Assembly (NCBI GenBank): GCA_019749875.1
Contig: JAIEPK010000237.1
Coordinates: 1 to 37,228, forward strand
DNA length: 37,228 nucleotides
Origin: Candidatus Binatia bacterium
Lineage (GTDB): Bacteria > Desulfobacterota > Binatia > UBA12015
Direction: 5' to 3'
Part shown: piece by piece, positions 12,547 to 26,835 of the stretch
How positions within the stretch are numbered: the first letter of the stretch is position 1
Layout of the letters: every line of letters starts with the position of its first letter
The notes under the pieces: generated by a model
Databases searched by the model: none
What the model saw: the letters and a program-made list of their open reading frames with translations, nothing else
What the model was told of the DNA's origin: nothing
Made by a program: the position numbers and the translations under genes

Positions 12547-12898
12547 GGGGGCGACCTGGATTCGACGGAGGTTACAGAGTCGGAGGTGGCACGCCGAGGT
12601 TCCGGTTGGCCTCGTTAAACAGCCGGACTGCTTAACCGCAGACAACGATCAGTACCTCCTCGCGGCCTAAGTGCCATGAGGCGTCCGCCTGGCCTTCTCC
12701 CGCTGGGCTAACGCGGACGTCATTTTCGCGGGATCGGTTCGGCGCTGCAGCTTGGAGGCGTCGGACTCAAATCTCCCAGGCTGGTCTCGAAGGAGCCCGC
12801 TCACGGGCGCCGACGGGATGACGACAAAACGTGAGCTAAGCGTGTAGAGGCTTTCGATCGAGTGCTTTCGGACGGGGGTTCAATTCCCCCCGCCTCCA
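12547..12898 (+). ncRNA. ssrA: Transfer-messenger RNA (tmRNA)
   Basis: One-piece tmRNA of about 352 nt. The 5' end GGGGGCGACCTGGATTCGACG and the 3' T-arm/acceptor GGGGGTTCAATTCCCCC followed by CGCCTCCA are diagnostic. GGGGGCG (12547-12553) pairs with CGCCTCC to form the 7-bp acceptor stem with one G-U. The tag reading frame starts at GCA 12638-12640 and ends at TAA 12668-12670, encoding ADNDQYLLAA. With the charged alanine the degradation tag is AADNDQYLLAA, ending LAA as protease-recognised tags do. The terminal CCA is not fully encoded: the sequence after the discriminator A is TTC, so CCA must be added afterwards. It works with the SmpB encoded upstream. Confidence 0.97.
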
Positions 12899-12913
12899 TT
12901 CTCGGTACGAACT

Positions 12914-16200: not shown

Positions 16201-17133
16201 ATGGCCGACCTGCTGCGCGACGCGCGTACCACGCTCCTGCTGCGGGCGCTCGAGCTGCTCGGCAAACGACGACGGCGTGTCCTCGGCTGGCGCGCCCTCG
16301 CCGGTACCGGCGTGGCCGACATCACATTCGAGAGCCAAGGGCTCTCGTGGACCGCGTCGCCCGACGACGGGCCGGTCGGATTCGCTCTCTTCGTCGACGG
16401 CGCCTATCACGGCGCCGAGCTCGCGGCGCTGTGCTCGTGGATGGCGCACGGCGGTGTGGTGTCCGCGACGCGCGACGTCGTCGTCGACGTCGGTGCGCAC
16501 ATCGGCTCGACCTGCATCCCGCTCGCTCGCGCGACCGGCTGCCGGGTGCTCGCGATCGAGCCGGTCGCAGCGAGCTTTCGACGCTTGACGGCCAACGTCG
16601 CACAGAATGCTCTCGCCGAGCGCATCCGCCTTGCGCATGCCGCCGTCCGAAGACAGGGCGGGCGCGTCACGATGTCTCTCGTTCCCGGGGCCTCGGGGAG
16701 CAGCTTCGTGTCGGGCACCGAGCCCGGCCGGAGGGCACCGGACGCGTTGCAGGTCGAGGAGGTCGACGCGCGACCGCTCGGCGACCTGCTGGCCGCGGCG
16801 GGCTTCCGTCCCGAGGAGGTCGCCCTGGTGTGGGCGGACGTTCAAGGCTGCGAGGCGGAGGTCATCGCATCGGGCACGGCGCTCTGGGCGCGCGGGGTCC
16901 CGCTGTGGGCGGAGATCGAGCCGCGCTCGCTCCGGCAGCAGGGCGGCGTCGCGGAGTTCGTACGCCGCGCCGGCGAGCACTTCGACCGATTCATCGAGGC
17001 ACAGGACCTCGTCCGCCATGGCGCGGCCGCGCGCCCCGTGCCGATCGCTGCATTGACGGCGCTGATCGAGTCCATCGGCCCGGAGCTGAACCGCGATGCG
17101 CTGTTCCTGCCGCCGGGCCGCCAGCCGGGTTGA
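16201..17133 (+). CDS. FkbM-family SAM-dependent methyltransferase
   Basis: A 310-residue protein. The SAM-binding motif VVVDVGAHIGSTCIPLAR is followed by VLAIEPVAASFRRLTANV, the standard FkbM layout of glycine-rich loop and acidic residue ending strand 2. LVWADVQGCEAEVIASG matches the IKIDVEGxExxVL block, with Gln in place of Glu. FkbM enzymes O-methylate sugars or polyketides, often in surface glycan pathways. Here the gene stands alone but lies close to the saposin-like gene and the STT3/GT4 pair, so methylation of a glycan is a reasonable guess. No Shine-Dalgarno is evident before the ATG at 16201. Confidence 0.85.
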   Translation: MADLLRDARTTLLLRALELLGKRRRRVLGWRALAGTGVADITFESQGLSWTASPDDGPVGFALFVDGAYHGAELAALCSWMAHGGVVSATRDVVVDVGAHIGSTCIPLARATGCRVLAIEPVAASFRRLTANVAQNALAERIRLAHAAVRRQGGRVTMSLVPGASGSSFVSGTEPGRRAPDALQVEEVDARPLGDLLAAAGFRPEEVALVWADVQGCEAEVIASGTALWARGVPLWAEIEPRSLRQQGGVAEFVRRAGEHFDRFIEAQDLVRHGAAARPVPIAALTALIESIGPELNRDALFLPPGRQPG

Positions 17134-17872: not shown

Positions 17873-20476
17873 TCATCGCTCGACGACGTCGGGCCAGCGG
17901 AGGCGCCACGTCGTCACGCGCTCGTCGCCGGCGACGCGCTCGTCGATCTTGATGAAGCGGCTCGCCCAGCGGCCGTCGAGGTAGAGCAGCTGGACCAGCG
18001 TCGAGCCGATCAAGGCCGGTGCGCCGACCAGCACGCGCCGGCGCTCGACGTCGACGAGAACGCCGAGTCCCGGGTGGGCGGGCGACTCCGGCGTCACGCG
18101 CTCGAGGCCGTCGCGACCTGCCACCAGCACCAGCCCGGGCGTTCCGGACAGACGTCGGCCGTCCTCTCCCGAGCGCGTCGTCAGCACGGCGTGCGCCGGT
18201 GTGTCCGCTGGATACTTGACATCGTCGAGGTACGTGCGACCGCCGCCGACCGAGGTGTCGATCGGGCACACGACCTCACCGGCACGCTCGTCGCAGGGGA
18301 TCCACGCGGCGACGAAGGGAACGCCCGAGGTCGCGTCGTCGCGCGCCGGCCGGCCGCTGGTCGCGCTCGACCGCGGGTCCCACGACGCCATCTCGACCAG
18401 CGCGCTGCGCTTGCGCAGCAGCGCCGACGACACGACGAGGTACGTCTCGGGCGGCGTGCAGTGCGTCGCCTGCAGCACCCGATCACGTACGTCGGGCGCG
18501 AGCCCACGCTCCTCCAGGTAGGCTCGTGCGCCGGCATGGTCGCGCACCACGACGTCGGCGACGATCGTGAACGCGTCCAGCGGATCGCGGCCCGAGCGCC
18601 GCAGGATCGCGTAGGCGCCCGCTTCGCCTTCCGGCAGCGGCAGCGCATCGGAGCCGCAGCTCAGCATGCGCAGGACGCCGGCGCTGTCGGCCTCGTTCGG
18701 GGCGAGCAGCGCGCGGCTGGTCCAGTACGGGAGGTGTGTCAGCAGCGAGCTGCCGTCGTTGGCGACGCGACGGTCGGCGACGTAGCTGATCCAGTGCCCG
18801 GTCTCCCACCAGCCGTGCACGATCGCATCGGGTGCGCTCGTGTCGCGCAGGTGCTCGAGCGCGTCCCACCAGGCATCGTCGATCAACGGCCGGTAGCGGC
18901 TCGCCAGGGTCAGGCCCGGGTCGAGCAGGCGGAGAGACGCGATCGCCAGCACGAGCGACAGGGCCGTCGTCGCGAGCGCACGATACCAGCGCGCTTCGGC
19001 GGCGATCGTCGCCCGGACCAAAGTGGTCGCGCGACCCACGAGCACGGCGCCGCCGAAGGCGATCGGTGGCACGGCGAACAGATAGAAGCGCAGTCCTTCT
19101 GACGCGGCGTAGATCGCTGCTCCGGACCAGACGACCAGGACGACTCCGTCATCACGCGCGCCGCGGTCGCGATCGTCGGCGCCGGTCATGCGGGTGAGCG
19201 TGGCCGCGACGAGCGGCACGCCGAGCACCATCGCCGCCGAGGCGAGGCGGCCGATGCCGGCCACGACGAGCCAGCCACCGCCGACGAGCGCCATCGCGAA
19301 CACCGACCGGTGCTGCGCCCGCCACGGACCCTGCGGCAGGAGCAGCAGCACGATGCCGAGCCATGCGCCGACCAGCACCCACGATCCACCGGCTTGCCGC
19401 GCGATCGCGGCGAGATCGAGCGGGGCGAGCTCGGCGACCATGGTGAGGCCACTGGGAAAGGCGAGCTCGGCGCCGGTCGCCGGCGACGACGCAGCGCGCG
19501 TGAAGAGCGTGGCCGCATGCTCGCGCGCGACACGGAGCAAGCCGCCGTCGGGCGTCAGGCTCGTCGCGACGCCGAGCGCGACCACGAACGTGACCAGCAC
19601 GAGCAGCGTGCGTCGCAGGTCGATCGCCGCCCGCCGGTCGCCGACGAGGCGGGATCGCACCACGTCGAGCAGCAGCACCGCGGCGAGCGCCGTCGTCACG
19701 ATCACCGGCACGAACGGCCAGCCGCGCCACGCCCATGCGTGCCCCCCGACGCAGCCGCCGGCAGCCATTGCCATGAGCGCCGCGTGCGCCGGGCGCCGCG
19801 CGTCGAGCGCCGCAAGGACGAGCCACAGGACGTAGAGCGGCAGCACGACGGTCCACACGTCGTTGTCGGCGCCGAGCGTGCGCGCGAGGACGCGTGCGTC
19901 GAGGGCCGTCAGCAGGACCGCGAAGGCTCCGGCGACGTCACCGCCGCCGAGGCGTCGACCCAGAAAGAACGCCGGTACGACGCCCGCGAGCGCGACCAGC
20001 AAGGTCGTTGCGCGCGCCGCGTCCGGCAACGGCAGGTCGCGACCCGTCCACCATCCGGCGACACGCGCCAGCGCGGCGATCGCCGTGACGTGCAGCGAGC
20101 GCGCATAGTACGTCGCAGCACCGAGCGGCGCTGCGGTGTGCTGGTCGCGACACGCGCCATCGACGACCGCGTCGCACGCATCGCCGGTACGGAGCAGCGT
20201 GCGTGCGTGGCGGAGCCAGAGGTAGCTGTCGAGGTCGCCGAGATAGACGTGCTCGCGCCCGTCGTCGCCGACGTGCGTCCATTCGGCGGCGTGCTCGCGG
20301 GCATCGGCGGCGAAGACGTCCGGCCGGGTCGGCAGGAGCCGTACCCACAGAACGAGCCCGAAGCAGGCCGCGAGCACCAGCGCCGTCGCGAGGCGGGCGC
20401 GAGCGCGGCGACGTCGGTCGTCGCGCGACGCCGCTGCAGCGCCCGTCACGGTGCCCGGTCCCCGTCGACGATGCAC
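17873..20476 (-). CDS. STT3-family oligosaccharyltransferase (PglB/AglB-like) membrane protein
   Basis: An 867-residue protein with about a dozen membrane helices up to residue ~515 and a periplasmic C-terminal domain, the STT3 design. STT3 enzymes move a lipid-linked glycan to Asn in N-x-S/T. Visible features are GDLDSYLWLRHARTL (81-95), like the first acidic loop motif; the DND of LGADNDVW at 204-206, like the second DxD; TMVAE at 345-349 (Glu349), like the S/TxxE motif of the EL5 loop; and WWETG at 556-560, in the position of the WWDxG acceptor motif. RFYLFAVPPIA lies in the late helices. The Glu in WWETG is unusual. The GTG start at 20476 is uncertain by several residues; an in-frame GTG follows at codon 10. 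The GT4 gene lies 114 bases upstream on the same strand. Confidence 0.85.
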   Translation of the reverse strand: MHRRRGPGTVTGAAAASRDDRRRRARARLATALVLAACFGLVLWVRLLPTRPDVFAADAREHAAEWTHVGDDGREHVYLGDLDSYLWLRHARTLLRTGDACDAVVDGACRDQHTAAPLGAATYYARSLHVTAIAALARVAGWWTGRDLPLPDAARATTLLVALAGVVPAFFLGRRLGGGDVAGAFAVLLTALDARVLARTLGADNDVWTVVLPLYVLWLVLAALDARRPAHAALMAMAAGGCVGGHAWAWRGWPFVPVIVTTALAAVLLLDVVRSRLVGDRRAAIDLRRTLLVLVTFVVALGVATSLTPDGGLLRVAREHAATLFTRAASSPATGAELAFPSGLTMVAELAPLDLAAIARQAGGSWVLVGAWLGIVLLLLPQGPWRAQHRSVFAMALVGGGWLVVAGIGRLASAAMVLGVPLVAATLTRMTGADDRDRGARDDGVVLVVWSGAAIYAASEGLRFYLFAVPPIAFGGAVLVGRATTLVRATIAAEARWYRALATTALSLVLAIASLRLLDPGLTLASRYRPLIDDAWWDALEHLRDTSAPDAIVHGWWETGHWISYVADRRVANDGSSLLTHLPYWTSRALLAPNEADSAGVLRMLSCGSDALPLPEGEAGAYAILRRSGRDPLDAFTIVADVVVRDHAGARAYLEERGLAPDVRDRVLQATHCTPPETYLVVSSALLRKRSALVEMASWDPRSSATSGRPARDDATSGVPFVAAWIPCDERAGEVVCPIDTSVGGGRTYLDDVKYPADTPAHAVLTTRSGEDGRRLSGTPGLVLVAGRDGLERVTPESPAHPGLGVLVDVERRRVLVGAPALIGSTLVQLLYLDGRWASRFIKIDERVAGDERVTTWRLRWPDVVER

Positions 20477-20590
20477 GGCGGGCCGGATGGCGCTCGATGC
20501 ACGGCCGGCGCCGCCGGCAGGGAGCCGCAGCGGCGAGCGGCCGCGTGCGCGGCACCGACGACGGGCTCGTCGCGTTCCACCGGCGGCGCG

Positions 20591-21724
20591 TCAGCGTCCG
20601 GCGACGAGCGTGCGCAGCTCGTCGACGAAGCGCGTGGTGGAGAACTCCTGCGCACGCACGGCGAGCGACGCGCGCAGCGCGTCCTGCGCCGCCGGGTCGC
20701 GATGCACGGCGAGCAGGCGCTGCGCCGCTTCTGCCGGGTCGCGAAACAGCAGGCGCGGGTCGTCGCCGACGATCTCCCGTGGGCCTGCCGAGGCGTGCAC
20801 GAACGGGATGCAGCCGGCGCGCAGCATCTCGGCGACCGCGATGCCGAAGGGCTCGTCGATCATCGCGTGCAGGCCGTAGCGCTGTGCCGCGACGAGATGC
20901 AGCAGCTCGTCGCGCGCGAGGTCGAGATGCAGGTGCACCCAGGCGGCGTGCTCGCGTACCAGCGCGCGGACCTCGTCGAGGTAGGCGCGATCGCCTTCGC
21001 TGCCGATCAGGTGCAGGTCCAGATCCGCGCCGCCGCGTCGGGCGAGATGAACGGCGTGCACCACGTCGGCGAGCCGTTTCTCCGGCGACAGCCGGCCGAT
21101 CGCGACCACGCCGTCGTTGCGCGCGTGCCACGGCACGGCGGGGAACTCGCCGGGCACGGGAGGGTAGAGCACGACCGGCTCGATTCCGTACAGCTCGCGC
21201 ACGCGAGCGGCGGTGTACGCCGAGTTCACCAGCGTGAGGTTGGCGCGCACGCCGGCGTCGGTGGTGCGGCCGAGCCGGCGCGTGAAGGCGCGGTACGCCG
21301 CGACCAGCGGCGCGCCGTGGTACCATTGGAGATCGACGTCGGGTCGCCCGGGATCGAGCTTCGGATAGTGGACGTACTGGATTCCGGGGCGTCCGAAGTC
21401 GGTCTCGTTGTCGGCGGTGAGCAGCAGGTCGTGACGGCCGGCGAGGCGCCGCGCGAGGCGCATGAGCAGCGCATGCTTCAGCAGTGCCGCGGGCAAGGGG
21501 CTCCAGGCGACGAGCCGGCGTACCGCCGCGGACGGCAAGACGAGCGTGAAGTCGCCGGGGACGAGCGACGTTCCGAAGTGGCGGTTGACGCTCGCCAGGT
21601 CGGGCGGCTCCCAGGCGAGCAGCGTCAAGCGGTGATCGCGGCGCAGCGCCTCGATCACCCACGCCGCGACCAGATGGCCGCCGCCCGGTGGGGCGAGCGA
21701 GGGCTGGACCACGAGGAGCCGCAC
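20591..21724 (-). CDS. Glycosyltransferase family 4 protein
   Basis: A 377-residue GT-B glycosyltransferase from the GTG at 21722-21724 (VRLLVVQPSLAPPGGGH), where the family's first strand begins. A GTG at 21784 would add 20 basic residues with no family likeness. The N-terminal PSLAPPGGGHLVAAWVIEAL loop and the VVAIGRLSPEKRLADVV and EPFGIAVAEMLRAGCIPF blocks are seen. The last contains the E-x7-E motif of retaining GT4 enzymes. The SLAPPGGGHLVAAW start resembles ALG11-like mannosyltransferases. Lying directly upstream of the STT3 gene on the same strand, it may extend the lipid-linked glycan that STT3 transfers. Donor and acceptor are not known. Confidence 0.88.
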   Translation of the reverse strand: MRLLVVQPSLAPPGGGHLVAAWVIEALRRDHRLTLLAWEPPDLASVNRHFGTSLVPGDFTLVLPSAAVRRLVAWSPLPAALLKHALLMRLARRLAGRHDLLLTADNETDFGRPGIQYVHYPKLDPGRPDVDLQWYHGAPLVAAYRAFTRRLGRTTDAGVRANLTLVNSAYTAARVRELYGIEPVVLYPPVPGEFPAVPWHARNDGVVAIGRLSPEKRLADVVHAVHLARRGGADLDLHLIGSEGDRAYLDEVRALVREHAAWVHLHLDLARDELLHLVAAQRYGLHAMIDEPFGIAVAEMLRAGCIPFVHASAGPREIVGDDPRLLFRDPAEAAQRLLAVHRDPAAQDALRASLAVRAQEFSTTRFVDELRTLVAGR

Positions 21725-22181
21725 CGGACGCTTGTTCCGTGCACGCCGTCCGGACGCAAGCACGCCGCGTCGCGCGCAGGCCACGGGTGACGAAGCGAGG
21801 GACGATCGTGCCAGGTTGGTGCGGCGACCGAGCGACGTCGCGGCCGCGTCGCCGCCACGACCGGCATGGCTGGCGGCAGCGTCCTCGCGTCGCCTGACCT
21901 GTGCGGAGCATGCCCGGTCGCCGACGTGGCGCGCGGCGGCATCGCTCGTCGCCCGAATTGCGCGCCGGCATCCTGCTTGCGACGGACTGCCAGACGTCGC
22001 CGATGCACGATTTGCCGTCAGAGCCCCGACCAGCCGCCTCGCGGCCGCGCTCGTTTCGCGCCGTGTTCCGTCTTCACCGCGACGCCGTCGCGACGACGCT
22101 CGACCGCCGCTGGGGCGTCATGGTGAGAGGCGATGTCGGGGAACGGCCGGACGTTTGCACCCCGCACGCGCCGAGCGAAGC
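21725..22181. other. 457-base divergent intergenic region between the GT4 and hydrolase genes
   Basis: No supported gene, repeat or RNA is seen. Short frames on both strands have Arg-rich translations typical of GC-rich non-coding frames. Promoters for both genes must lie here, but no clear -10/-35 pair is evident. Confidence 0.4.
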
Positions 22182-23402
22182 GTGGCACCGCGTCGCGTGA
22201 GCGCACACGTCGTTTTCCGGTGCGCGCCGTTGGCGCTGCTCGCGAGCGGTTGCGCGCTCCTCGCGACGCCGCGGCTGCCAGCACCCGGCACGGCGAGCGC
22301 GCGCTGGCTGGAGCGCGGCCACGACCGCATCGTCACGACCGACGTCGAGCTCGACGACCTGACCCGCGGTCGCACGCTCTCGTCGCGGTTGTGGTGGCCC
22401 GACGGCGCGACCGGTCCGTTGCCGCTCGTCGTGCAGTCGCACGGCTTCCTCAGCGATCGCGGCGGCGGAGCATCTTTGGCGCGTGCGCTCGCGCGTCGCG
22501 GCTACGTCGTCGTCGCCGCGACGTCTCCGGGGACGACGCTGCTCGCGCGCGGCGGCGCGCGCGTGGAGGACGTGACCGAGCAGCCCGGCGACGTGAGCTT
22601 CCTCATCGACCGGCTGCTCGACGAGCGCTCCGACGTACCGCCGCATCCGCCGATCGACGCGGCGCGGATCGCCGTCATGGGACACTCGCTGGGCGGCTTG
22701 ACGGCGACGCTCGCGGCGTTCGATCCGCGGCGACGCGATGCCCGCATCGGCGCAGCGATCTCGATCGCGGGTCCGCTCGCGATGTTCGAGCCGCGCTTCT
22801 TCGCGTCGGCGCCGGTGCCGCTGCTGATGATCGCCGGCAGCGGCGACGTCATCGTCGACTACCGACGGAACGCGCTGGCGACGTTCGGCACCGTTCCCGA
22901 CGAGACCGTGGTGCTGATCGCGGGCGCGTCGCACACCGGCTTCGACGATGCCGCGAGCGGCCTCGCACGGCTGCTCGACAACCCGGACACGCTCGCCTGC
23001 TGGGTGCTCGCGCGAACGGTCGATCTCGACGCCGCGCAAGCTCGTCTCGACGAGCTGGGCCGCGAGGACGACGGCGTCGCGCCGGGCTACCGCATCGCGC
23101 CGCCGTGTCGCGACCCGCCGCCGCCGGTCGCGATGGACAGCGCGCGCCAGCAGCTCCTCACGACGCTCGCCGTGACCGCGTTTCTCGACGGCCGGTTCGC
23201 CATCGATCCGCGCACGCGCGCGCAAGCGCTCGACTACCTGACGAACGGCCTGGTGCGCGAGAATCCGGAGGTGAGCGTCCTCGCCACGCCGCGCGCGGCG
23301 GCATCGGCTCCGTTGCCGGTCGCCGTCGACGACCGCAGCGCCATCGCGCAGCCGTCGCCGGCGGCCGTCGGCGCGACGACCGCGAAGGGCCTCCTTCGTT
23401 GA
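22182..23402 (+). CDS. Lipoprotein alpha/beta hydrolase (PAF-acetylhydrolase/dienelactone hydrolase-like)
   Basis: A 406-residue protein from the GTG at 22182, which gives a short basic start (VAPRR) before the hydrophobic signal; a GTG at 22197 is the alternative. The signal ends LLASGC, a good lipobox, so the enzyme is probably a lipoprotein. Catalytic features are VVQSHGF (oxyanion strand), GHSLGG with the nucleophile Ser, GSGD with the likely Asp, and ASHTGFDD with the His. This layout resembles chlorophyllase/PAF-acetylhydrolase-type hydrolases. Cysteines in ACWVLA and APPCRDP suggest a periplasmic disulfide. The C-terminal 60 residues are Ala/Pro-rich and probably unstructured. Substrate unknown. 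Confidence 0.8.
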   Translation: MAPRRVSAHVVFRCAPLALLASGCALLATPRLPAPGTASARWLERGHDRIVTTDVELDDLTRGRTLSSRLWWPDGATGPLPLVVQSHGFLSDRGGGASLARALARRGYVVVAATSPGTTLLARGGARVEDVTEQPGDVSFLIDRLLDERSDVPPHPPIDAARIAVMGHSLGGLTATLAAFDPRRRDARIGAAISIAGPLAMFEPRFFASAPVPLLMIAGSGDVIVDYRRNALATFGTVPDETVVLIAGASHTGFDDAASGLARLLDNPDTLACWVLARTVDLDAAQARLDELGREDDGVAPGYRIAPPCRDPPPPVAMDSARQQLLTTLAVTAFLDGRFAIDPRTRAQALDYLTNGLVRENPEVSVLATPRAAASAPLPVAVDDRSAIAQPSPAAVGATTAKGLLR

Positions 23403-23510: not shown

Positions 23511-24314
23511 TCAGAGCGCGACGGCCGTCATGTCTGCACCCGCCTCGTCCGCGGCGAACCACTCCGTGATCCACTGCGGCACCGCCCCGCGCCGCGGATC
23601 GTGGAAGGGCGACAGCGTTTCGAGCAGGCCGAGCGCGAGCGCGACCTTCCGGCGGCGCGGGATGCGCGGCAGCGCGGGATCGTCGACCGGAGGCTCCTCG
23701 CAGGCGATGCATGCCGGCTGGACGCGGGCGCCGAGCGCGCTCACGTGCGCGAACGTCCGGCGCGCGACCCGGAGGCGATACCCATAGTCGCCGACGACCG
23801 CCTGGTACACGTCGAACATCGCGTGCCGGTGCTCGAATTCCTCGACGAAGTGCCAGAGGATGAACGACGCGATGCGCGGGTCGCCGTCGGCGAACAGCAC
23901 GTGGCGGTTCTCGACGAGGTAGCGGGCGAGCGGCTTGAAGCCGAGCTCGATGGTGGTCGCGTAGGCGAGCGCGAACGCGGTCGACTCGCTCCGCTGCAGG
24001 TCGTCGTACGAGCGGTTCACCTCGTCGCGGACGGCCTCCAGCGCCGGGTGCTTCCGCAGCAGCAGCTCCTGATGGTCGATGTGAAACTTCGCGTGCTGGC
24101 CTTCCTGGATGCAGAAGCGGTTCGCTTCGTCGCGCGCCGCGGCATCGCGGATGCGCGGCATGGCGTCGCGGATCGCCTTGATGAAGTAGCGCTCGAAGGC
24201 CGGCGCGATGAGCGACATGCTGGTGACGAGCAGGCTCGCCTCGCGGCTCTTGGGGTTGAACCAGAAGGGGATGTCGTCGCCGAACTCGAAGTGGAGCTTC
24301 CTCACCTTGATCAC
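23511..24314 (-). CDS. PF10118-type putative metal-dependent hydrolase
   Basis: A 267-residue, mostly helical protein starting at the GTG 24312-24314, with a GGAGG Shine-Dalgarno six bases before it. His/Glu-rich helices QEGQHAKFHIDHQELLL (about 70-86) and FILWHFVEEFEHRHAMFDVY (about 151-170) would supply a di-metal site, as in the PF10118/COG3687 family and other ferritin-like di-iron proteins. The IPFWFNPKSREASLLVTSMS opening is also characteristic of that family. The biochemical role is unproven despite the database name. It converges with the lipoprotein hydrolase gene and is divergent from the TonB receptor gene. Confidence 0.85.
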   Translation of the reverse strand: MIKVRKLHFEFGDDIPFWFNPKSREASLLVTSMSLIAPAFERYFIKAIRDAMPRIRDAAARDEANRFCIQEGQHAKFHIDHQELLLRKHPALEAVRDEVNRSYDDLQRSESTAFALAYATTIELGFKPLARYLVENRHVLFADGDPRIASFILWHFVEEFEHRHAMFDVYQAVVGDYGYRLRVARRTFAHVSALGARVQPACIACEEPPVDDPALPRIPRRRKVALALGLLETLSPFHDPRRGAVPQWITEWFAADEAGADMTAVAL

Positions 24315-24636
24315 GCCTGCCTCCGGGGCTCGCGTCGCCGCTCGTCGTCCGTGCGTGTTGGAGCCGGATCGAACCGAGCCGCACGCCGTCGGAGCGACAT
24401 AGCGCGGGTCGCCGCTCCGGTACCAGCACGAGAGTCCGGGCGAACCGCCGACGTCGAGGAATCGCTACCGAGGCGGCACGCGCGGCGCGCCCCGCGCGTC
24501 GGTCGACGTCGGACGTCCGCGCGCGACGCCGGCGGCGCCGGCGCGACGACGGACAACGTTGCGACAGGCCGTGGTCCGACAAGCTGCGGCGCTCGGACTG
24601 CTGGCATCGCGCAGCACGTTCCGCTCAACTTCGCCG
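24315..24636. other. 322-base divergent region upstream of the TonB-dependent receptor gene
   Basis: This region separates the metal-dependent hydrolase gene from the receptor gene. I see no Fur-type AT-rich palindrome and no clear cobalamin riboswitch box. The 3' part (24559-24636) may instead be coding if the TTG start of the receptor is used. Confidence 0.35.
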
Positions 24637-26835
24637 GTGCCGTCCCGCGCGCTGTTGTGGTTGCTCAGCCTCGCCGTCGTGTTGCCCGCGGCTGCAGCAG
24701 GTGGAACGTCGGTGACGGAGGGCACGTGCGCCGCGGGCGTGCAGTCCCTCGCGATGAGCAACGCGGCGACATCCTGCCGCGAGCCGTCTTCACCGAACGC
24801 GCCATCCGCGAACGCCGCCGCGTCGAACGCGAGCGACACCAGCCCCATCCTGCTCGACACGACCGTCGTCACCGCCACGCGCGCCCCGACGTCGCTCCGT
24901 GACGTCCCCGCCGCGGTCTCGGTCATCGACCAGCGCGCGATCCAGGAAGCGCGCCCGACGGTCAGCCTGAGCGAGCCCTTGAACCGCGTCCCGGGCGCGT
25001 TCGTGCAGGACGCCGGCAATCAAGCACAGGGGCCGCGCATCCAGATCCGCGGCTTCGGCACGCGCGCCGCGTTCGGCATCCGCGAGATCCGCGTCATCCT
25101 CGACGGCCTGCCCGAGACGCTACCGGACGGCCAGACCGAGCTCGGCGACGTCGACTTGGAGTCGATCGCGCGCATCGAGGTCCTGCGCGGCCCCGCCTCG
25201 TCCCTGTACGGCAACGCGTCGGGCGGCGTGATCGCGCTGTTCACCGAGGATCCGCCGGACACGCCGACGGCCGCGTCGCGCACGCTCGCGGGATCGTACG
25301 GCCTCGTGAAGACGTCGCTGAAGGGCGGGGCGACCGCGGGCGACGTCGGGGTGTTCGCGCAGGGCTCGTACTTCAGCATCGCCGGCTTCCGCGATCACGC
25401 GGCCGCATACGACGGTACGCTGAACGCGAAGCTGCGCTGGGCGCCGGCGCAGACGACGCGCGTCACGCTGCTGGTCAACGCAGTCGACGCCCCGCTCGCG
25501 GACGATCCCGGCGGGCTCACCTGGCAGCAGGCGCACGCGAATCCGAAGCAGGCGCGCGACCTCAACGTTCTGCTCGACGCCGGCGAGGCGACACGGCAGG
25601 GGCGCGTCGGCATGGTCTTCGAGCATCGCGATGGCCCGCACGCGCTGTCGGCCTACGGCTACGCGCTGTACCGCGACTTCGACTCGCGCCAGCCGATCCT
25701 GCCGGCCAACGGTGACGGTGCGGTGGCGTTCCACCGCACGAGCCCCGGCGGCGGCGTGCGCTACGACTTGACCGCACCGCTCGCGGGCTTCGCGCAGACG
25801 CTGACCGTCGGCCTCGACGCGCAGGGGCAGGACGACGTGCGGCGCCGCTGGGCGAACGTGGACGGCACGCGCGGTACGCTCGGGGTGAGCGAGCGCGAGA
25901 CGGTGCAGGGGATCGGCGCCTACCTGCGCGAAGCGGTGTTCGTCACCGACGACGTCCAGCTGTCCGCCGGTGCGCGCTACGACGACGTCGCATTCGCGGT
26001 CGACGTCGCGTACCCGGCAGGCGCAGGCGACGGCGCTCGCACGTTCGGGCACTGGAGCCCGGCGGGCGGAGTTTTGTGGAGCGCGCTGCCGTGGCTCTCC
26101 GCCTACCTGAACGTCGGCACCACCTTTCAGGTGCCGACCACGACGGAGCTCGCGAATCCCGACGGCGCGGGGCTCGCGACCGGGATCGCGCCGCAAGTCG
26201 CGACGAGCTGGGAGATCGGCGCGCGCGCGGGACGGCCGGACGTGGTCGAGGGCGGCGTCGCGGCCTACCTGCTCGACGTCGAGGACGAGCTGGTGCCGTA
26301 CGAGACGGCGTCGGGTCGCACCGCGTTCCGCAATGCCGGCAGCTCGCGACGCATCGGAGTCGAGCTGGACGGGCATGCACGCTTGACGCCGTGGCTCGGC
26401 AGGCTGCTGGGCGGTGACCTCGACTGGACCGGCTCGTTCACCGCGATCGATGCGAAGTACCGTCGCTACGTCACGCCGGCCGGTGACTTCGACGGCAACG
26501 ACGAGCCGGGCATCCCGCCCTGGCAGGTCTACCAGCAGCTCGCGTGGCGTCGGCCGGAGGGCGCAGTCGTGGCACTCGAGGCGCTCTTCGTCGGCGGCTA
26601 CTTCGTCGACGACGCGAACGACGCGCGTGCGCGCGGCTACCCGCTGGTCAACCTGCGCGCCGGTTGGGCGCGCGACCTCGGGGCGCTGCACGTGGCGCCG
26701 TTCGTCGGCGTGCAGAATCTCATCGACTCCTCGTACGCGGCGGTGGTCCGGTTGAACGCGCTCGGCGGTCGCTTCTACGAGCCGGCGGCGGGCGTCAACG
26801 TCTACGGCGGCGTGACGATCACCGCGCGGCTGTGA
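24637..26835 (+). CDS. TonB-dependent outer-membrane receptor
   Basis: A 732-residue receptor from the GTG at 24637, which puts a normal signal peptide (VPSRALLWLLSLAVVLPA) at the N-terminus; a TTG at 24559 in frame would add 26 residues. The likely TonB box is LDTTVVTATRAP. The plug domain shows PRIQIRGFGTRAAFGIREIR, VILDGLPETLPDGQTELG and ARIEVLRGPASSLYGNASGG. The rest reads as a 22-strand barrel ending NVYGGVTITARL. This pattern is common to siderophore (FecA/FhuA-like) and some vitamin or sugar receptors; the ligand cannot be inferred and no metal-uptake genes adjoin it. No ExbB, ExbD or TonB gene is in the window. Confidence 0.9.
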   Translation: MPSRALLWLLSLAVVLPAAAAGGTSVTEGTCAAGVQSLAMSNAATSCREPSSPNAPSANAAASNASDTSPILLDTTVVTATRAPTSLRDVPAAVSVIDQRAIQEARPTVSLSEPLNRVPGAFVQDAGNQAQGPRIQIRGFGTRAAFGIREIRVILDGLPETLPDGQTELGDVDLESIARIEVLRGPASSLYGNASGGVIALFTEDPPDTPTAASRTLAGSYGLVKTSLKGGATAGDVGVFAQGSYFSIAGFRDHAAAYDGTLNAKLRWAPAQTTRVTLLVNAVDAPLADDPGGLTWQQAHANPKQARDLNVLLDAGEATRQGRVGMVFEHRDGPHALSAYGYALYRDFDSRQPILPANGDGAVAFHRTSPGGGVRYDLTAPLAGFAQTLTVGLDAQGQDDVRRRWANVDGTRGTLGVSERETVQGIGAYLREAVFVTDDVQLSAGARYDDVAFAVDVAYPAGAGDGARTFGHWSPAGGVLWSALPWLSAYLNVGTTFQVPTTTELANPDGAGLATGIAPQVATSWEIGARAGRPDVVEGGVAAYLLDVEDELVPYETASGRTAFRNAGSSRRIGVELDGHARLTPWLGRLLGGDLDWTGSFTAIDAKYRRYVTPAGDFDGNDEPGIPPWQVYQQLAWRRPEGAVVALEALFVGGYFVDDANDARARGYPLVNLRAGWARDLGALHVAPFVGVQNLIDSSYAAVVRLNALGGRFYEPAAGVNVYGGVTITARL

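Follow-up and report, generated by a model that had tools for sequence, protein, structure and literature searches.

Oligosaccharyltransferases (OSTs) of the STT3/PglB/AglB family attach sugar chains to asparagine residues in proteins, and their WWD motif, to our knowledge reported as strictly conserved among these enzymes, contributes to the N-x-S/T acceptor rule. The locus analysed here lies on a 37,228-nucleotide stretch of DNA from Candidatus Binatia bacterium (contig JAIEPK010000237.1, hereafter the window) and raises the question of whether a protein in which this motif reads WWETG is such an enzyme and, if so, what the glutamate means. A sequence-only reading had proposed an STT3 with a possibly shifted acceptor choice, placed next to an ALG11-like GT4 glycosyltransferase in a small, undescribed N-glycosylation locus.

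The gene in question (17873-20476, minus strand) is an open frame with no internal stops and encodes 867 aa, with a membrane part at about aa 1-530 and a periplasmic domain at about aa 531-867. The protein matches PF02516 (STT3; E 8.6e-13, 49 bits against a cut-off of 24.5) and, weakly and under the cut-off, the STT3/PglB/AglB core model PF21436 (E 0.0055; aa 552-604, spanning WWETG). An AF2 model built with 18 Binatia sequences as input (mean pLDDT 85.4, pTM 0.87) combines a GT-C membrane domain with a C-terminal OST periplasmic domain, which is the fold of an OST. The best 20 PDB matches found by Foldseek were OSTs or a PglB domain, while 19 of the best 20 found by VIA-align were OSTs (Z 22-27, 510-640 residues) and the remaining one was DPY19. 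The OSTs matched by VIA-align came from yeast, human, archaea and bacteria and aligned over both domains, covering aa 20-867, and a profile search of the PDB with the STT3 family returned only OSTs (17 of 17 hits). A GT39/PMT-like or other GT-C enzyme, the alternative already raised with the sequence-only reading, would share the membrane fold, which is indeed matched by PMT, ArnT, AftD and similar GT-C structures; however, OSTs span both domains at higher Z, protein O-mannosyltransferase (PMT) structures align by VIA-align to aa 1-534 alone, that is to the membrane half, and no PMT/GT39 sequence match was obtained with Pfam or in the profile comparison with the PDB. We regard this alternative as extremely improbable. 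By domain, fold and phylogeny, the window protein is an STT3-family homologue.

The catalytic Asp, Glu and Arg residues are retained, and the acidic loop motifs and TMVAE on which the original identification drew proved to be sound. All of the following (minus strand) are invariant in every relative that covers them: D83 in the first DxD-type motif (20228-20230), D204 and D206 of the second acidic motif, DND (19859-19867), E349 in TMVAE, a TIXE-like loop (19430-19432), R463 ahead of the periplasmic domain (19088-19090), and D574, 16 residues past E558 (18755-18757). At the position of E349, a Glu is present in 95 of the 95 aligned rows with a residue there. D574 is likely, from its spacing, to be the counterpart of PglB D475 (PMC3527161). 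The sequence A635xxI638xxxV642 would be compatible with an Ile-type DK/MI motif by spacing alone; another candidate for this motif, G600xxR603xxxC607, was rejected because the profile alignment sets R603 on an Arg of the preceding helix in human STT3A.

WWETG occupies aa 556-560 (18797-18811, minus strand) and is encoded by TGG TGG GAG ACC GGG, read from 18811 to 18797, with the glutamate at residue 558 (18803-18805). When a profile of the periplasmic core was compared with solved chains, WWETG aligned with the WWDYG motifs of the human proteins STT3A and STT3B, and PglB and archaeal AglB chains were likewise among the hits. A second WWD at aa 536-538 (WWDAL), 20 residues upstream, was considered as the true acceptor motif and rejected, as it is WWETG rather than WWDAL that the profile alignment matches to WWDYG; most Binatia relatives possess W-W-D/E at the upstream site plus a canonical WWD downstream. 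The possibility that a genuine WWD might lie elsewhere in the protein is thereby answered, the one at aa 536 being a different site, and the reading of WWETG as the acceptor motif stands. As Glu replaces Asp in WWDxG, we call the window STT3 a variant and claim no canonical acceptor rule for it. The motif is known from one contig of a fragmented assembly, and the change from D to E takes a single base, so that a sequencing or assembly error has to be considered. The adjacent change from Y/F to T takes two more, however, so an error turning WWDFG into WWETG would involve three base differences across two adjacent codons, and both the reading frame and the flanks are intact; we consider an error very unlikely.

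We surveyed 148 genomes of the class Binatia and found an STT3 homologue in 15 of them. A scan of the genome contigs with a single protein as query gave 0 matches; an alignment-based scan of a named genome collection gave 77 loci and brought in DPANN archaea, mostly Woesearchaeota. Once redundancy was removed, 78 long sequences remained, chiefly from Binatia bacteria and DPANN archaea and including that of the window. WWD is retained in 74 of these (WWDFG 54, WWDYG 16, and one each of WWDHG, WWDNG, WWDRG and WWDFA), and WWE occurs in the window STT3 alone. The other three exceptions are WWPAG in a paralogue from genome G105, PWDFG at locus L078, and AWDYA in a divergent Omnitrophota protein (L129). 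An extra, partly masked paralogue in genome G051 has WWSYG. The residue after the motif Asp is variable among Binatia (Y, F, H, N, R, A). The survey of relatives suggested at the outset thus confines WWE to the window protein; WWDFG is present in the STT3 of genome G020 (L035), which at 56% identity is the relative closest to it.

Among the Binatia paralogues at L042 (G105, WWPAG), L050 (G051, WWSYG) and L048 (G105, WWDRG), the Asp has been lost more than once. Around L042 lie GT4s, Wzy_C, a flippase of the Wzx-like kind and a polysaccharide deacetylase (DUF3473). The genome of the window itself encodes a second PF02516 protein of 788 aa (L003:8489-10852, plus strand, contig C439), which has an AglB_L1 domain, is TIGR04154-like (265 bits, below the cut-off) and shows PWPLGHK at the expected WWDYG position, the WWD motif being absent throughout.

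The degree of constraint on the window STT3 was assessed by a leave-one-out test of 38 near-invariant columns, each at least 97% identical in all other sequences. The window STT3 keeps 37 of these, and its sole departure is D558E. Because only one column of 38 departs, and this is the motif Asp, the protein is specifically altered rather than decaying. This pattern, which we consider the strongest single result of the study, shows a protein held under constraint everywhere except at D558E. Identity to the nearest relative is 58.4% in the periplasmic domain, 53.7% in the membrane part and 71.6% around the motif, and decay is also disfavoured because the periplasmic domain is as conserved as the membrane part.

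In a quick tree, whose root sits on a very long branch and whose underlying scan patterns favour close relatives, the Binatia STT3s group with L078 in a single clade (aLRT 100) among the AglBs of DPANN archaea, and the window STT3 is sister to the STT3 of genome G020 (L035; aLRT 100). The two nearest contigs labelled Woesearchaeota have a high G+C content (0.57 and 0.68). No Binatia glycan genes were found around the archaeal STT3 loci, and for this reason the gene set seems to have been assembled in bacteria.

That gene set recurs around STT3 in several Binatia families. Alongside GT4s, which fall into three clusters, it includes a MurG-like GT28 and a phosphosugar transferase of the WecA/MraY type, as well as an ABC transporter that in NCBIfam matches PglK best, though below the model cut-off. 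The GT4 glycosyltransferase in the window (20591-21784, minus strand; 397 aa; PF00534, E 2.3e-12; E-x7-E motif EPFGIAVAE) belongs to one of the three clusters. Its start is likely the GTG at 21724, the end of the gene as first annotated, because homologues align from aa ~22 onwards. The gene is found near STT3 or its gene set at six loci (L035, L036, L038, L040, L047 and L078), with a fragment at L037. STT3 (15 of 148 genomes) and this GT4 (19 of 148) occur together in 11 genomes against 1.9 expected (Fisher p 6e-9, a figure uncorrected for relatedness and inflated by kin genomes). Judged from this gene company, the GT4 is a true pathway partner of STT3. The functional link postulated earlier is thus real, but the likeness to ALG11 did not hold, as the GT4 gave no ALG11-specific match, only generic Pfam GT4 models and weak NCBIfam matches far under the cut-off.

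Other members of the set are found on a second contig of the same genome (C95, 3625 bases), which carries the start of a GT28, a GT4 (40-54% identity), a flippase (39-53%) and the start of a WecA-like gene, in the order seen in relatives and with the GT28 and WecA-like genes present as fragments at the contig ends. A Pgl-like gene set is therefore present when the window GT4 and C95 are taken together, split over two contigs and with two genes incomplete. C95 and the window are linked through the genome bin alone; an attempt to join them yielded no usable overlap, and C95 represents either a locus of its own or a part lying far away, because unrelated genes flank the STT3-GT4 pair on both sides. 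Elsewhere the genome has an ordinary MurG, an ordinary MraY and a more distant WecA-like gene. What had been described as a small locus is better seen as two genes out of a conserved group numbering six or more, the remainder being on C95. The description as undescribed is in line with the literature searched, in which we found no paper on glycosylation in Binatota. The only genome of the same genus, G001, lacks STT3 as well as anything close to the GT4 of the window or to the genes on C95, and its DNA has almost no counterpart of the window at ~13.0-23.5 kb, while the flanks match at 81-94%; the pathway is for this reason considered accessory within the genus.

Several further genes in the vicinity deserve mention. 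FkbM-type methyltransferases are encoded near STT3 both in the window (16201-17133, plus strand) and at L035 (7953-8831, plus strand); the two are 30% identical over 161 aa, and glycan methylation could be their role. A PF10118 metal-dependent hydrolase (23511-24314, minus strand) lies close to STT3, as it does at L045, L046, L047 and L051 (family f11), which may merely reflect its abundance in Binatia. The window also has a tmRNA gene (12547-12901, plus strand; Rfam RF00023, 193.9 bits), an alpha/beta hydrolase (21732-23402, plus strand; Pfam PETase PF12740, E 5e-11) whose actual start is probably further in, and a TonB-dependent receptor (24559-26835, plus strand) nearest to PqqU, well below the cut-off (361 bits vs 1200).

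We favour, with moderate confidence, the interpretation that the window STT3 is an active OST that would end a lipid-linked-oligosaccharide, N-glycosylation-like pathway of Binatia, with a reshaped pocket for the +2 residue of the acceptor. It builds on the observed homology, fold, catalytic residues, gene company and partner genes in the genome. In the pathway as we infer it, the WecA-like enzyme would start a sugar-PP-polyprenol, probably with GlcNAc, and the MurG-like GT28 would add the second sugar in the manner of Alg13/14 and Agl24. GT4 enzymes, including that at 20591-21784, would then extend the glycan, the PglK-like ABC protein would flip the lipid-linked product, and STT3 would move the glycan en bloc onto Asn residues of proteins that are exported. 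In the window lineage Glu has taken the place of the Asp in the pocket for the +2 Ser/Thr, and Thr that of the neighbouring Tyr/Phe.

What the glutamate does depends on the role of the residue that it replaces. In C. lari PglB, the +2 Thr is hydrogen-bonded by W463, W464 and D465, and in simulations D465 bonds the +2 amide as well as the hydroxyl (PMC8479172). The contact between this Asp and the Ser/Thr assumed in the sequence-only reading thus agrees with published PglB work (PMC8479172, PMC3527161). The literature searched contained no measurement of a D-to-E change at the acceptor Asp and no text on D518E in yeast Stt3p. From sequence, Glu at 558 might preserve, shift or weaken the recognition of Ser/Thr.

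It is quite possible, if somewhat short of probable, that the change is functionally neutral, such that Glu still takes the hydrogen bonds of the +2 Ser/Thr and ordinary N-x-S/T sites are glycosylated. The carboxylate survives in Glu, the rest of the STT3 family signature is kept, and the position after the Asp is variable in Binatia anyway; however, WWD is held in 74 of 78 sequences across two domains of life, no other relative has Glu, and the aromatic residue beside the Asp is replaced by Thr. A loss of efficient protein transfer, with the enzyme becoming a pseudo-OST or hydrolysing the lipid-linked glycan or moving it to polysaccharide or lipid, would be in keeping with C. jejuni PglB, in which the inactive variants include D459V, D459N (in a double mutant), Y460N and Y460C (PMC3527161). 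It would also fit the paralogous Binatia clade that lacks the Asp as well (WWPAG in L042, WWSYG in L050), where the adjoining Wzy_C ligase, Wzx-type flippase and polysaccharide deacetylase of L042 hint at polysaccharide roles. Yet the substitution here is Glu, no other family signature is eroded, and G020 keeps WWDFG in its sister gene, which lies inside a glycan cluster, so we consider such a loss unlikely. We are more doubtful still about a non-standard sequon, where a +2 pocket carrying Glu and Thr would lead the OST to prefer residues besides or instead of Ser/Thr at +2; if true, this would mean, together with the WWP and WWS paralogues of Binatia, that the N-x-S/T acceptor rule has been re-tuned in nature. 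Most likely, in our view, the window STT3 is still active and its +2 pocket reshaped.

A natural WWE enzyme that is otherwise intact, with pathway genes in the same genome, offers a ready-made test of how the N-x-S/T rule is enforced and how far it can be changed, and would be of use for glycoengineering. In the Binatia set an OST of archaeal type is combined with enzymes resembling MurG and WecA, an arrangement apparently undescribed in the literature searched.

The nearest relatives found beyond Binatia are the AglB-type OSTs of Woesearchaeota and Nanoarchaeota (DPANN), with 24-41% identity to Binatia members. They resemble the Binatia proteins in GxLRMLxC, in periplasmic Cys residues and in the catalytic residues, but differ in having WWDFG or WWDYG and surroundings without the Binatia glycan genes. 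Campylobacter PglB is likewise a single-protein bacterial OST of the same fold (VIA Z 24, 633 residues), and a PglK-like ABC flippase is a partner in both systems, whereas PglB has WWDYG, its identity to the window STT3 in the structural alignment is 15-16%, and the WecA-like and MurG-like enzymes set the Binatia genes apart from the pgl locus. The eukaryotic Alg7-Alg13/14-Alg1/2/11-STT3 pathway and that of Sulfolobus with Agl24 are built on the same plan, with a GlcNAc-phosphate transferase, then an enzyme resembling MurG or Alg13/14, and further GT4s and STT3 (PMC8993221); the Binatia set differs by its bacterial MurG-like enzyme, its ABC flippase and a GT4 that is not specifically ALG11-like. 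The closest counterpart is the G020 locus (L035), whose STT3 is accompanied by GT28, WecA-like, GT4 and flippase genes nearby, and which differs from the window by its WWDFG motif and by having the gene set in one place rather than split.
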